Assembly (NCBI RefSeq): GCF_039645965.1
Contig: NZ_CP147917.1
Coordinates: 1,426,001 to 1,490,000, forward strand
Origin: Sulfurimonas sp. HSL3-2
Lineage (GTDB): Bacteria; Campylobacterota; Campylobacteria; Campylobacterales; Sulfurimonadaceae
Length of the DNA stretch: 64,000 nucleotides
Direction: 5' to 3'
The notes under the pieces were generated by a model that saw nothing but the letters and a program-made list of their open reading frames with translations, made no database searches and was not told the DNA's origin. Each line of letters begins with the position of its first letter. Within the stretch, counting starts at the first letter, position 1. Shown in pieces: positions 7,463 through 11,214 of this stretch. Position numbers and translations under genes: made by a program.

Positions 7463-7495
7463 TATAAAATGTTATATTCTACGTAAAGGGTATGT

Positions 7496-8482
7496 TTGAA
7501 ATTACTTTTTATATTTATTGCACTCCTGTTCACCTCCCTTTATGCCGAAAATTATGAGATGGGGCGAGGTCTTACTTTAAGTGAGAAACTTCACGTCGGC
7601 GGTTATATCTCTACAGATTATGAATCTAGCAATGACAAAAAGCAGTTCAGACTCGATGATGTCGCAGTCCTGGTATACGGACGGGTACTTCCTGAACTTT
7701 CTTACCTGGTCGAATGGGAAGCGACTCCCTTTTATCAAAAAAACTACACGACTGAAGCTGAAGAGTATAATCCTAGATTTTACTACGAACGTGCGTATGT
7801 GGATTATGCTTATTCGGAGATGTTCAATTTCCGCGGCGGGAAACAGATAACTCCTATCGGTTACTGGAATCTTGAACCTATAAACGTACTAAGAGATACG
7901 AGTTCAGATCCGCTTTACAGTTATGAGATGTTTCCTAAGTTCTTAACCGGACTGGACATTTACGGCTATCTGAATGAGTCAGCATCAGTGAAATACCATC
8001 TTTTCGGACAAAAAAACAATAATCTTGATGATAGCACGTTAAACATACAGGCGGATCAATTTTTTGCTATTTCCCTGGAGCATGAAATAACTTCAGAGTT
8101 CAGTTACGGAGGTTCGATAGGAAACTTTGTGACAAAAGACAAAAAGCATACGAACTTTATCCAGTTAGACGGCAAATATGATGCATACCCTTTTGTTTTT
8201 CAAGCAGAAGCGGCATATAACGATAATGAAGACACACTGCTTGATGAAAAAAACTATAAGACTGCCGGTTATGCACAAGCTCTTTATCATATAAATATGA
8301 AACATGCTCTTATCGGACGTTATGAGTATTTCCATGACAGCAGCGACTCAAGAACGAACAATATCGGAGTCTTGGGGTATAGTTACAGACCTATATATCC
8401 GGTGTCTTTAAAAGGCGAGCTGCAGTACAACTCCGATGAACGCTTGAACAAATTTATCATCTCATTTTCGGTGCTGTTTTAA
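7496..8482 (+). CDS. Outer-membrane porin, OprO/P-like
   Basis: 328 residues with a signal peptide (MKLLFIFIALLFTSLYA) and alternating beta-strand sequence ending in a terminal aromatic (FSVLF), typical of an outer-membrane barrel. Segments such as FRGGKQITPIGYW and LDGKYDAYPFVFQAEAAY resemble phosphate-selective porin O/P. The start is TTG at 7496, preceded by AAAGGG; the nearby ATG at 7492 is out of frame. Its stop overlaps the start of the PstS-like gene (TAATG), indicating a tightly coupled operon. The substrate is inferred to be an anion, possibly phosphate, only from family resemblance and the neighbour. Confidence 0.75.
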   Translation: MKLLFIFIALLFTSLYAENYEMGRGLTLSEKLHVGGYISTDYESSNDKKQFRLDDVAVLVYGRVLPELSYLVEWEATPFYQKNYTTEAEEYNPRFYYERAYVDYAYSEMFNFRGGKQITPIGYWNLEPINVLRDTSSDPLYSYEMFPKFLTGLDIYGYLNESASVKYHLFGQKNNNLDDSTLNIQADQFFAISLEHEITSEFSYGGSIGNFVTKDKKHTNFIQLDGKYDAYPFVFQAEAAYNDNEDTLLDEKNYKTAGYAQALYHINMKHALIGRYEYFHDSSDSRTNNIGVLGYSYRPIYPVSLKGELQYNSDERLNKFIISFSVLF

Positions 8483-8883
8483 TGAGAGTGTTATTCCTGA
8501 TCTTCATCTTTTCAATGACGCTCACAGCATCTGAATATGCAGTCATCACCTCTTCAAAAAGCACGATCAGTGAACTGTCGTCCAAGCAGGTCAAAGATAT
8601 ATTTATGATGAAATTACACTACATCGACGATGTAAAAGTGATACCGATAAACGCCTCGGCAAGCGCAGCAATACGCCAAGAGTTTGAGAAAAATGTTTTA
8701 AAAACAGATAGACAGCGTCTAAACAACTACTGGATAAAACAACACTTCCAAGGTATAAGCCCGCCGGTCACCCAGCCATCTATACAATCGGTGAAGATGT
8801 TTATAAAAAATGTAAACGGTACTATTGGTTATATCCCTATGGATATGGTCGATCCCGATGTGAGAGTCTTGTATGAGTTTTAA
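8482..8883 (+). CDS. PstS-like periplasmic substrate-binding protein, short form
   Basis: 133 residues with signal peptide MRVLFLIFIFSMTLTASE. The mature part (YAVITSSKSTISELSSKQVKDIFM ... NYWIKQHF ... GTIGYIPMDMVD) matches the PBP-like domain of small phosphate ABC transporter binding proteins, but is about half the length of PstS. It overlaps the porin by one base (ATG at 8482 within TAATG) and the cyclase by 11 bases. With a porin before it and a membrane cyclase after it, it probably delivers or reports a periplasmic ligand; no ABC permease is encoded nearby. Confidence 0.72.
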   Translation: MRVLFLIFIFSMTLTASEYAVITSSKSTISELSSKQVKDIFMMKLHYIDDVKVIPINASASAAIRQEFEKNVLKTDRQRLNNYWIKQHFQGISPPVTQPSIQSVKMFIKNVNGTIGYIPMDMVDPDVRVLYEF

Positions 8884-10609
8884 ACTAAAAGCGGTACTGC
8901 TGATACTTTCCATCGCATTGATCCCCTACATTACGATCATGTTCTATATAGGGAACATGCTTCGCGATACATACAATCAAAACCTGACAAAAGAGATGCA
9001 GACACAGCTCTCACTTACGACAAAAAGCATTGAACAGTATATACAGACACTTCAAAACGATATGCAGTTTATGGTCAGACTTGACATGATGAACGATATA
9101 TTTTCAGGAGACCTTGATAGACGGATAAGTAAACTTCTGGAAGAGAAAAAAGATGAACTGAAACTTTACGGTGATTTTTACATAGTCGATAAAGAGAATA
9201 AGATCATAGCATCCAGCGACAGTTCAAAACTTAACAAACCGATCAGCTTCAAGCCATTTTTTACATACCCTGTTCAATCCACATTCGATAATACTACGAT
9301 AGGAAATCTGGTCTTAGAGTTTTCACCAAAAAACCTGACCTACTTTTTCAACAATACAAAGGACAGGATCTATTACATCGTCTTAAACAAAGAGAACACG
9401 CTTTTTAAAGAAAGAACTTTCAAGCAGGCATTTGTCGTTAAAAGTGCATTAAAAAGCAATCCGGATATAGAGATAGTACTTGAACAGGACAAAGAGCTGT
9501 TCTTAGAGCTTTTAAAAAAATATGAATATTGGTTTATTGCGACTATTCTGATCGGTGCTTTCATCATAACCGTCATCGCCATGTTTTTTATAAACCATCT
9601 TATAAGACCTATTATCTCTTTATCTCATACAGCTGATGAGATCACGCAAAAGCAGGACTACACATATAGAGTCGACAGCTCTTCAAATGACGAGATCGGA
9701 AAACTTTCAAAGTCGTTTAACAAGATGCTGATAGGGATGTCCGAAACTCTCCATAAACTAAAAGAGGAAACAAAAAACAGAGAAAAGCTGATAGAAGAAC
9801 AGAGTAAAAACGAGATGTTAAAACAGCTTTCTCATAAACTCTCAAAATATCTCTCGCCTCAAATATACGAATCCATATTCTCAGGTGCACAAGATGTCAC
9901 ACTAACGTCTAAGCGTAAGAAACTGACTATCTTTTTTTCAGACATCGTAAACTTTACCGATACGACTGAGACCATGGAGTCCGAAGATCTCAGCGAACTT
10001 TTAAACGACTACTTGAACGATATGACTCAGATAGCACTTAAATACGGTGCGACAGTAGATAAATACATCGGTGATGCGATAATGCTCTTTTTTGGAGACC
10101 CCAAATCAAAAGGGATAGAGGAAGATGCAACAGCCTGTGTCAATATGGCACTGGAGATGCAGGAGCATATGGACACACTCCACAAAAGATGGAATAAAAA
10201 AGGATTTACAAAACCGTTTAAGATCCGCATCGGTATCCATACAGGCTACTGTACCGTCGGGAACTTCGGCAGTGAGAACAGACTTGAGTATACCATCATC
10301 GGTTCCTCTGTCAATCTTGCAAGCCGAATAGAATCATCGGCTAGTCCAAATGAGATACTTATATCAGAAGAGACTCAGCTTTTAGTAGACAGTAAGTTCG
10401 ATTGTAAAAGATCAAAAGAGATAACTCCAAAAGGATTCACTCGTCCTATATCTCTTTATAGTGTTTATAGAAAAACAGATAACACTGAAGATGAGATAAT
10501 CATCCAGGAGGACGGGCTGAATCTGCAGGTAAATATGGATAAAGTATCCCAACAGAACAAAGAACTTTTAAAAGAAAGACTTGTTAATATACTCAACAAA
10601 CTTTCTTAA
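8873..10609 (+). CDS. Membrane class III adenylate/guanylate cyclase with HAMP domain
   Basis: 578 residues. TM1 is at about 7-25, a periplasmic sensor at about 26-217, TM2 at about 220-243 and HAMP at about 243-295. A coiled-coil linker then leads to a class III cyclase domain at about 345-535. Both metal-binding Asp positions are present (SDIVNFTD and KYIGDAIMLFFGDP), as is the transition-state motif (NRLEYTIIGSSVNLASRIES). It should therefore be active, making cAMP or possibly cGMP; the purine choice cannot be decided by eye. The ATG at 8873 lies inside the PstS-like gene. The operon suggests control of cyclase activity by a ligand that enters through the porin. Confidence 0.88.
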   Translation: MSFKLKAVLLILSIALIPYITIMFYIGNMLRDTYNQNLTKEMQTQLSLTTKSIEQYIQTLQNDMQFMVRLDMMNDIFSGDLDRRISKLLEEKKDELKLYGDFYIVDKENKIIASSDSSKLNKPISFKPFFTYPVQSTFDNTTIGNLVLEFSPKNLTYFFNNTKDRIYYIVLNKENTLFKERTFKQAFVVKSALKSNPDIEIVLEQDKELFLELLKKYEYWFIATILIGAFIITVIAMFFINHLIRPIISLSHTADEITQKQDYTYRVDSSSNDEIGKLSKSFNKMLIGMSETLHKLKEETKNREKLIEEQSKNEMLKQLSHKLSKYLSPQIYESIFSGAQDVTLTSKRKKLTIFFSDIVNFTDTTETMESEDLSELLNDYLNDMTQIALKYGATVDKYIGDAIMLFFGDPKSKGIEEDATACVNMALEMQEHMDTLHKRWNKKGFTKPFKIRIGIHTGYCTVGNFGSENRLEYTIIGSSVNLASRIESSASPNEILISEETQLLVDSKFDCKRSKEITPKGFTRPISLYSVYRKTDNTEDEIIIQEDGLNLQVNMDKVSQQNKELLKERLVNILNKLS

Positions 10610-10663: not shown

Positions 10664-10689
10664 TCCACTCTTTTTTATATGGAGTGGTT

Positions 10690-11214
10690 TTGAAATTATT
10701 ATTATTAATATCATTTATATTTACGATCTCATTATTTGCTATCACCGATGAGCAATTAAATACTCTTCAAATAGTAAGAGACGTTGCGAGAACCGTACCT
10801 GCAAAAAACGGTGAGACTTACGAAGACACACTAAGTGCGATCTGTCTTACTGAAAGCAGTGCAGGAAAGAACCTTATAGGCGACTTCAATAAGAACGTCA
10901 TCTTGACTAAAGCTTCTCTTGGAGTTATGCAGGTTCAAGTTGCGACCGCACGTTATGTTGCAAAAAGAGTCGAAAGTATGAGCTGGATACTTTCTATGAC
11001 AAATGCACAGATAGCGAACCGTCTGCTTACGGATATAGAGTTTTCAGCACGTATCGCCACTCACTACTTCATTATCCTTAAAGACACTCGAGAAAAATAT
11101 CTTCATTCTGTAAGCGGATACAACGGCGGAATGGTCAATATGCCCTATTACTCGAGAGTTATGAGAAATCTGACAATTATAAATAAGCTAAAAGCTAAGA
11201 AAAAGCTATCTTAA
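10690..11214 (+). CDS. Secreted lytic-transglycosylase-like (SLT fold) protein
   Basis: 174 residues with signal peptide (MKLLLLISFIFTISLFA). The lysozyme-like order is complete: LTESSAG with the putative catalytic Glu at about 53, GVMQVQ (the GxMQ motif) at about 80, and a helix followed by SGYNGG (usually AYNxG) at about 150. This points to peptidoglycan cleavage in the periplasm. A GTG at 10684 is in frame, but it lies within the GGAG ribosome binding site, so TTG at 10690 is the better start. It is short for a full lytic transglycosylase and lacks other domains. Confidence 0.75.
   Translation: MKLLLLISFIFTISLFAITDEQLNTLQIVRDVARTVPAKNGETYEDTLSAICLTESSAGKNLIGDFNKNVILTKASLGVMQVQVATARYVAKRVESMSWILSMTNAQIANRLLTDIEFSARIATHYFIILKDTREKYLHSVSGYNGGMVNMPYYSRVMRNLTIINKLKAKKKLS

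Follow-up and report, generated by a model that had tools for sequence, protein, structure and literature searches.

An operon for a porin-like barrel, a single-lobe PstS-like protein and a Cache-HAMP adenylate cyclase as a candidate envelope-sensing module

Within a 64,000-nucleotide stretch of the Sulfurimonas sp. HSL3-2 genome (the window), three overlapping genes encode a porin-like outer-membrane barrel, a secreted single-lobe relative of PstS (half-PBP) and a membrane adenylate cyclase. We propose that this operon is a three-part envelope-sensing module in which the half-PBP serves as co-sensor of a Cache-HAMP transmitter, here controlling cAMP, and we regard this reading as the probable one. 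A signalling function is well supported by the genomics, and the recurrence in other bacteria of the three-part front end with at least two other outputs, and of a looser version with more, suggests a reusable module of envelope sensing not described before. The original prediction treated the trio as a relay responding to phosphate or another anion; missing from it was the observation that the front end is not cyclase-specific, the same porin and half-PBP serving HD-GYP and kinase sensors as well. The trio is real, conserved and more general than first noted; we read it as a variant of SBP-coupled tripartite signalling, and that it belongs to something broader is plausible.

The operon and its products

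The reported gene overlaps, at TAATG and by 11 bases, proved exact to the base (Table 1). The porin and half-PBP frames share a single base (TAATG), and most cyclase and HD-GYP triads retain the 11-base overlap between half-PBP and sensor. The porin frame opens with TTG and is preceded by AAAGGG at 7485-7490. The trio appears to form an operon of its own, because its left-hand neighbours lie on the opposite strand and 74 bases separate it from the next gene on the right. Its neighbours are pyrophosphatase, multi-pass membrane protein (no Pfam match), nuclease-like and lytic transglycosylase-like genes; the permease genes PstC, PstA and PstB are not among them, in agreement with the prediction that the PstS-like protein has no permease. 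Promoter and terminator scans around the operon gave a signal no better than shuffles, and an Rfam search returned no match. The SLT lytic transglycosylase-like frame (window 10684-11214, GTG start, 74 bases past the operon) sits behind the best promoter-like match of its strand, in a scan that overall did no better than shuffles. The source genome is a single contig of 2.24 Mb, and most of the closest named relatives of the trio come from Sulfurimonas and Sulfuricurvum MAGs.

Table 1. Features of the operon, in window coordinates
Feature	Position	Strand	Size, architecture or basis
Porin-like outer-membrane beta-barrel gene, first of operon	7496..8482	+	328 aa; ORF, Pfam, family alignment
Half-PBP gene (secreted single-lobe PstS-like periplasmic protein)	8482..8883	+	133 aa; AlphaFold model, structure match
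Membrane class III adenylate cyclase gene (predicted)	8873..10609	+	578 aa; TM, Cache-type periplasmic domain, TM, HAMP, linker, catalytic domain
Overlap of 11 bases, half-PBP end (YEF stop) and sensor start (MSF)	8873..8883	+	sequence
Sensor N-terminus (residues 1-206): first TM helix and Cache-type periplasmic domain	8873..9490	+	homologous to HD-GYP and histidine kinase inputs
HAMP domain of cyclase (residues 238-286)	9584..9730	+	Pfam HAMP
Predicted adenylate cyclase catalytic domain, CyaB-like (residues 344-532)	9902..10468	+	3r5g Z 28.9, 52% identity

The barrel carries a signal peptide and a C-terminal Phe, and matches Pfam BBP2 below the cut-off (E 9e-5). Members of its family are divided between BBP2 and Porin_O_P, with weak matches throughout, which gives little backing to the idea that the porin admits an anion. 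The Pfam matches of the window barrel are porin models, not OmpA/Pal lipoprotein.

The AlphaFold model of the half-PBP (pLDDT 94.7) superimposes on residues 77-187 of the 241 residues of PstS 4q8r (Z 14.8, rmsd 1.7 Å over 104 residues). This segment is lobe II only, and the same lobe was matched in many other PstS proteins. As modelled, the half-PBP is thus one complete PstS lobe and not a random truncation of full PstS; the description of it as half-length holds for its size and fold, at 133 aa and one lobe covered instead of the two lobes and about 240-320 aa of PstS. In sequence the relation is faint. A phmmer search of the half-PBP against PDB sequences gave no useful match, a Pfam scan of the half-PBP and 48 relatives gave none at E 0.01 (YfiR family included), and TIGR02136 was matched only weakly (E 0.0025, profile positions 123-225 of 295); the link to PstS came from profile search. 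In PstS, an R-x-x-G-S-G-T-R loop coordinates phosphate. A profile of 49 half-PBP relatives aligns to PstS with this anion loop replaced: the Arg position is A58 in the window protein and mostly Leu in the family, S-G-T is A62-A63-I64 and often D-P-L in the family (L..DPL), and R65 and F68 are conserved. Phosphate as the ligand is therefore unsupported, given a single PstS lobe and a phosphate-binding loop that is not conserved, and the ligand is probably not phosphate; the predicted binding of phosphate or another anion is likewise unsupported, on the same two points. Compared with PstS of PstSCAB, the half-PBP shares the one-lobe fold but is half the size, has no permease and does not conserve the anion loop. 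In one further cyclase triad (L084:5664-7818, genome G202), the half-PBP frame is broken by stops while porin and adenylate cyclase are intact, reflecting either a sequencing error or a decaying half-PBP.

In the cyclase, Pfam detected HAMP (E 6e-11) and Guanylate_cyc (E 3.5e-32). The periplasmic domain, earlier called uncharacterised, scores dCache_1 at E 1e-7, although this lies below the Pfam cut-off. Structure searches with the full cyclase gave essentially catalytic-domain matches only. The product should be cAMP, judging from the 52% identity to Pseudomonas aeruginosa CyaB (3r5g, over 192 residues) and from the presence of both metal-binding Asp residues (D357, D401), the adenine-selecting K397 and T474, and the transition-state residues N481 and R485. 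Of the two products first suggested, cAMP and cGMP, the latter was rejected since K397 and T474 fit adenine. All six adenylate cyclase triads tested carry the class III catalytic motifs. CyaB has a MASE2 membrane domain. The window cyclase resembles it in the catalytic domain but has Cache and HAMP for its membrane part, and MASE2 was not found among Pfam matches up to E 1. Nor did Pfam find a GGDEF output in the window sensor, which has the Guanylate_cyc domain instead.

A survey reported that all adenylate cyclases identified in Campylobacterota carry CHASE2 (PMC9239204). The window cyclase is class III like these enzymes, but Pfam found no CHASE2 in it, only the sub-threshold dCache_1 and HAMP. 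Two more cyclases are encoded in the same genome, both of them CHASE2 proteins with catalytic domains 35-39% identical to that of the window cyclase. Each lies directly downstream of a gene for a small secreted-looking protein of 246 or 236 aa (L045:2321-5103 and L046:2241-5078), perhaps the FecR-domain partner described for Campylobacterota. The genome also encodes three cNMP-binding proteins that could act as cAMP readers; one candidate (L099:1030-1794) has 254 aa and no obvious DNA-binding domain.

Conserved triads with an exchanged output

Relatives were collected by the half-PBP alone, and gene neighbourhoods were read afterwards. When subfamily-specific models of the porin, the half-PBP and the sensor were each run over the same 298 Campylobacteria genomes, each gave strong matches at 22 loci, and these were the same 22 loci, 17 of which had contributed nothing to the models. 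A single extra strong porin match is a fragment at a contig end (L089), and the weaker half-PBP matches belong to a more distant subfamily. The triad is thus obligate in the Campylobacteria subfamily, and the trio can be taken as a conserved unit, as had been suggested; cyclase homologues routinely found apart from the other two genes, which would have spoken against it, were not seen among the strong matches. Since the three models are subfamily-specific, this count applies to the subfamily, and remote homologues living alone could be missed. Chance adjacency was considered and rejected, as 22 of 22 loci keep the trio, and with it an SBP gene adjoining a receptor gene. Strong matches at no more than 22 loci in 298 genomes mark the triad as accessory.

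Gene order is porin, half-PBP, sensor throughout, a receiver gene sometimes standing ahead of a kinase. Pairwise divergences of the three genes correlate (r 0.88-0.94), partly through species history. Genome G257 has two triads, one with an adenylate cyclase (L081) and one with a histidine kinase (L082), and each of their genes is closest to its counterpart in a triad of like output from another genome, and not to that of the other triad in G257.

Across triads the Cache-HAMP input is homologous and the outputs differ. An adenylate cyclase output was found in the window and in L025/L047, L048, L055, L070, L081 and L084; about 21 Sulfuricurvum and Sulfurimonas loci have an HD-GYP output with HDIGK and HHEKxxGxGYP motifs; the remaining triads have a histidine kinase, which a receiver gene often separates from the half-PBP. 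Homology between the window sensor and the HD-GYP sensors continues through HAMP to about residue 296, beyond which the output differs. In a tree of porin, half-PBP and sensor input from 43 triads, the histidine kinase type forms one side of a fully supported branch and the adenylate cyclase and HD-GYP types interleave; a single clade was rejected for either of these (AU p 5.5e-57 and 1.2e-53), and they likewise interleave in a tree of porin and half-PBP only. The output domain has thus been repeatedly exchanged behind a conserved input. If the root is assumed to lie between the histidine kinase type and the rest, the most parsimonious history has one change between histidine kinase and adenylate cyclase and two replacements of adenylate cyclase by HD-GYP. 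The adenylate cyclase domains are 57-94% identical and the HD-GYP domains 76-92%, the attached inputs having diverged much further; by these identities each set of domains looks like one lineage. At L026:3411-5420 and L051, a second Cache-histidine kinase gene directly adjoins an HD-GYP triad, which suggests that one porin/half-PBP pair may serve two sensors.

Proposed mechanism and its alternatives

In the module as we propose it, an outer-membrane barrel, a dedicated single-lobe half-PBP that serves no transporter and a Cache-HAMP transmitter in the inner membrane would work together. Most likely, the half-PBP would dock on the Cache domain and switch the transmitter, the trigger being either a solute entering via the barrel or the state of the barrel itself, and HAMP would relay the change to the catalytic dimer, altering cAMP. 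We infer the contact between half-PBP and Cache domain, the role of the porin in signalling and the direction of control. SBPs act on chemoreceptors, kinases, c-di-GMP enzymes and Ser/Thr kinases, and adenylate cyclases are absent from those lists (PMC9602780, PMC11113362). In PstS-CtpL, TorT-TorS, NspS-MbaA and ScrB-ScrC, as we suppose here, a periplasmic binding protein is presented to the periplasmic domain of a receptor. To our knowledge, all of these systems use full-size SBPs and have no obligate porin gene.

The main competing explanation follows YfiBNR (TpbB) of P. aeruginosa, in which YfiB lies in the outer membrane, YfiR is a small periplasmic repressor and YfiN is an inner-membrane PAS-like/HAMP/GGDEF protein (PMC2837407, PMC4655355). 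By analogy, the half-PBP would inhibit the cyclase in the periplasm and the barrel would sequester the half-PBP on envelope stress, no diffusible solute being sensed. The topology is the same, with an outer-membrane protein, a small periplasmic protein and an inner-membrane HAMP nucleotide cyclase in one operon, and a single lobe devoid of the phosphate loop may bind no solute at all. Yet YfiB is an OmpA/Pal lipoprotein and the barrel is porin-like, YfiR belongs to another family and the half-PBP matches neither that family nor any other in Pfam, the output of YfiBNR is GGDEF only, and PBP ancestry suggests a small ligand. Searches found no homology between the YfiBNR families and the parts of the trio, which would best be read as analogous to YfiBNR and not homologous with it. 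We consider a repressor-sequestration scheme of this kind unlikely, though it deserves to be taken seriously.

Two further readings concern a transported or sensed solute. If porin and half-PBP formed an uptake or scavenging route, the sensor would merely regulate it or be co-transcribed. Pairs of Alteromonadales that have no same-strand sensor would fit this, but no ABC permease is linked, we know of no transporter partner for a single-lobe protein, and all 22 loci of the Campylobacteria subfamily include the sensor, which makes a primary uptake function improbable. Sensing of phosphate or another oxyanion, with the anion entering through the porin and being bound by the PstS-like protein for the cyclase to respond, draws on the PstS fold of the half-PBP, on the weak resemblance of some family porins to Porin_O_P, and on the precedent of PstS driving the MCP CtpL in P. 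aeruginosa (PMC4926252). The half-PBP, however, is one of two lobes with a replaced anion loop, phosphate-transport genes are absent next to the trio, and the genome encodes a separate full-length PstS-like protein, itself below its family cut-off; we give phosphate sensing very little credence. The relay of the original prediction thus survives in its arrangement and as a conserved unit, and loses its phosphate or anion signal. Its view that this is not a described system stands, in that we found no description of a porin, half-PBP and sensor module in the open-access library that was searched.

Distant relatives and breadth

Distant half-PBPs retain the pattern of outer-membrane protein, half-PBP and sensor, the sensors being HAMP-GGDEF (L074, with L075, L076 and L079 alike), MCP (L073) or histidine kinase (L042, L043). 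In a survey of Pseudomonadota that covered plasmid and chromid records, an outer-membrane protein and a half-PBP of about 135 aa adjoin an MCP in Massilia, Ideonella, Pseudoalteromonas and P. aeruginosa megaplasmids, and a Cache-GGDEF-EAL protein in Caballeronia. These loci are linked to the window by the sequence similarity of their half-PBPs, with the barrels and sensors only as putative counterparts of those in the window. The MCP of Pseudoalteromonas and P. aeruginosa lies on the opposite strand or upstream of the pair, and several pairs have no obvious sensor alongside; the pair of outer-membrane protein and half-PBP may therefore have a function of its own.

More tentatively, and as a possibility that we would not yet favor, barrel and single-lobe protein could constitute a widespread and so far undescribed envelope-receptor class, a reusable input cassette for at least six outputs (adenylate cyclase, HD-GYP, histidine kinase, GGDEF, GGDEF-EAL and MCP) in two phyla, with the binding site of the lobe made complete only by contact with the barrel or the Cache domain. 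Such a class would count among its members the first adenylate cyclase under the control of a periplasmic binding protein. If the proposed module is real, it would be a modular tripartite receptor from outer membrane to cytoplasm whose input has been connected variously to cAMP, c-di-GMP, phosphorelay and perhaps chemotaxis outputs, and a natural series for studying the coupling of a single periplasmic input to different outputs through HAMP. Beside the CHASE2 enzymes, so far the only kind in the picture of cAMP signalling in Campylobacterota, it would place a PBP-linked class with Cache and HAMP, and it would account for many small proteins that carry the annotation 'phosphate ABC transporter substrate-binding protein' but probably neither bind phosphate nor take part in transport.

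On the P. aeruginosa megaplasmids (L103, L104) the cassette consists of MCP, porin and half-PBP, and on the Alteromonas plasmid MRG65-300 (L096) a half-PBP and, downstream of it, a hypothetical protein of some 386 aa lie beside type IV CRISPR csf genes. At L041:6031-8265, an outer-membrane protein and half-PBP are followed by a caspase/FGE-sulfatase domain protein in the transmitter's place. In L077 and L078, the gene after a distant half-PBP encodes a protein of 416 aa, without a Pfam match in L078, and an HD-GYP protein comes next; the sensor may here be split over two genes.
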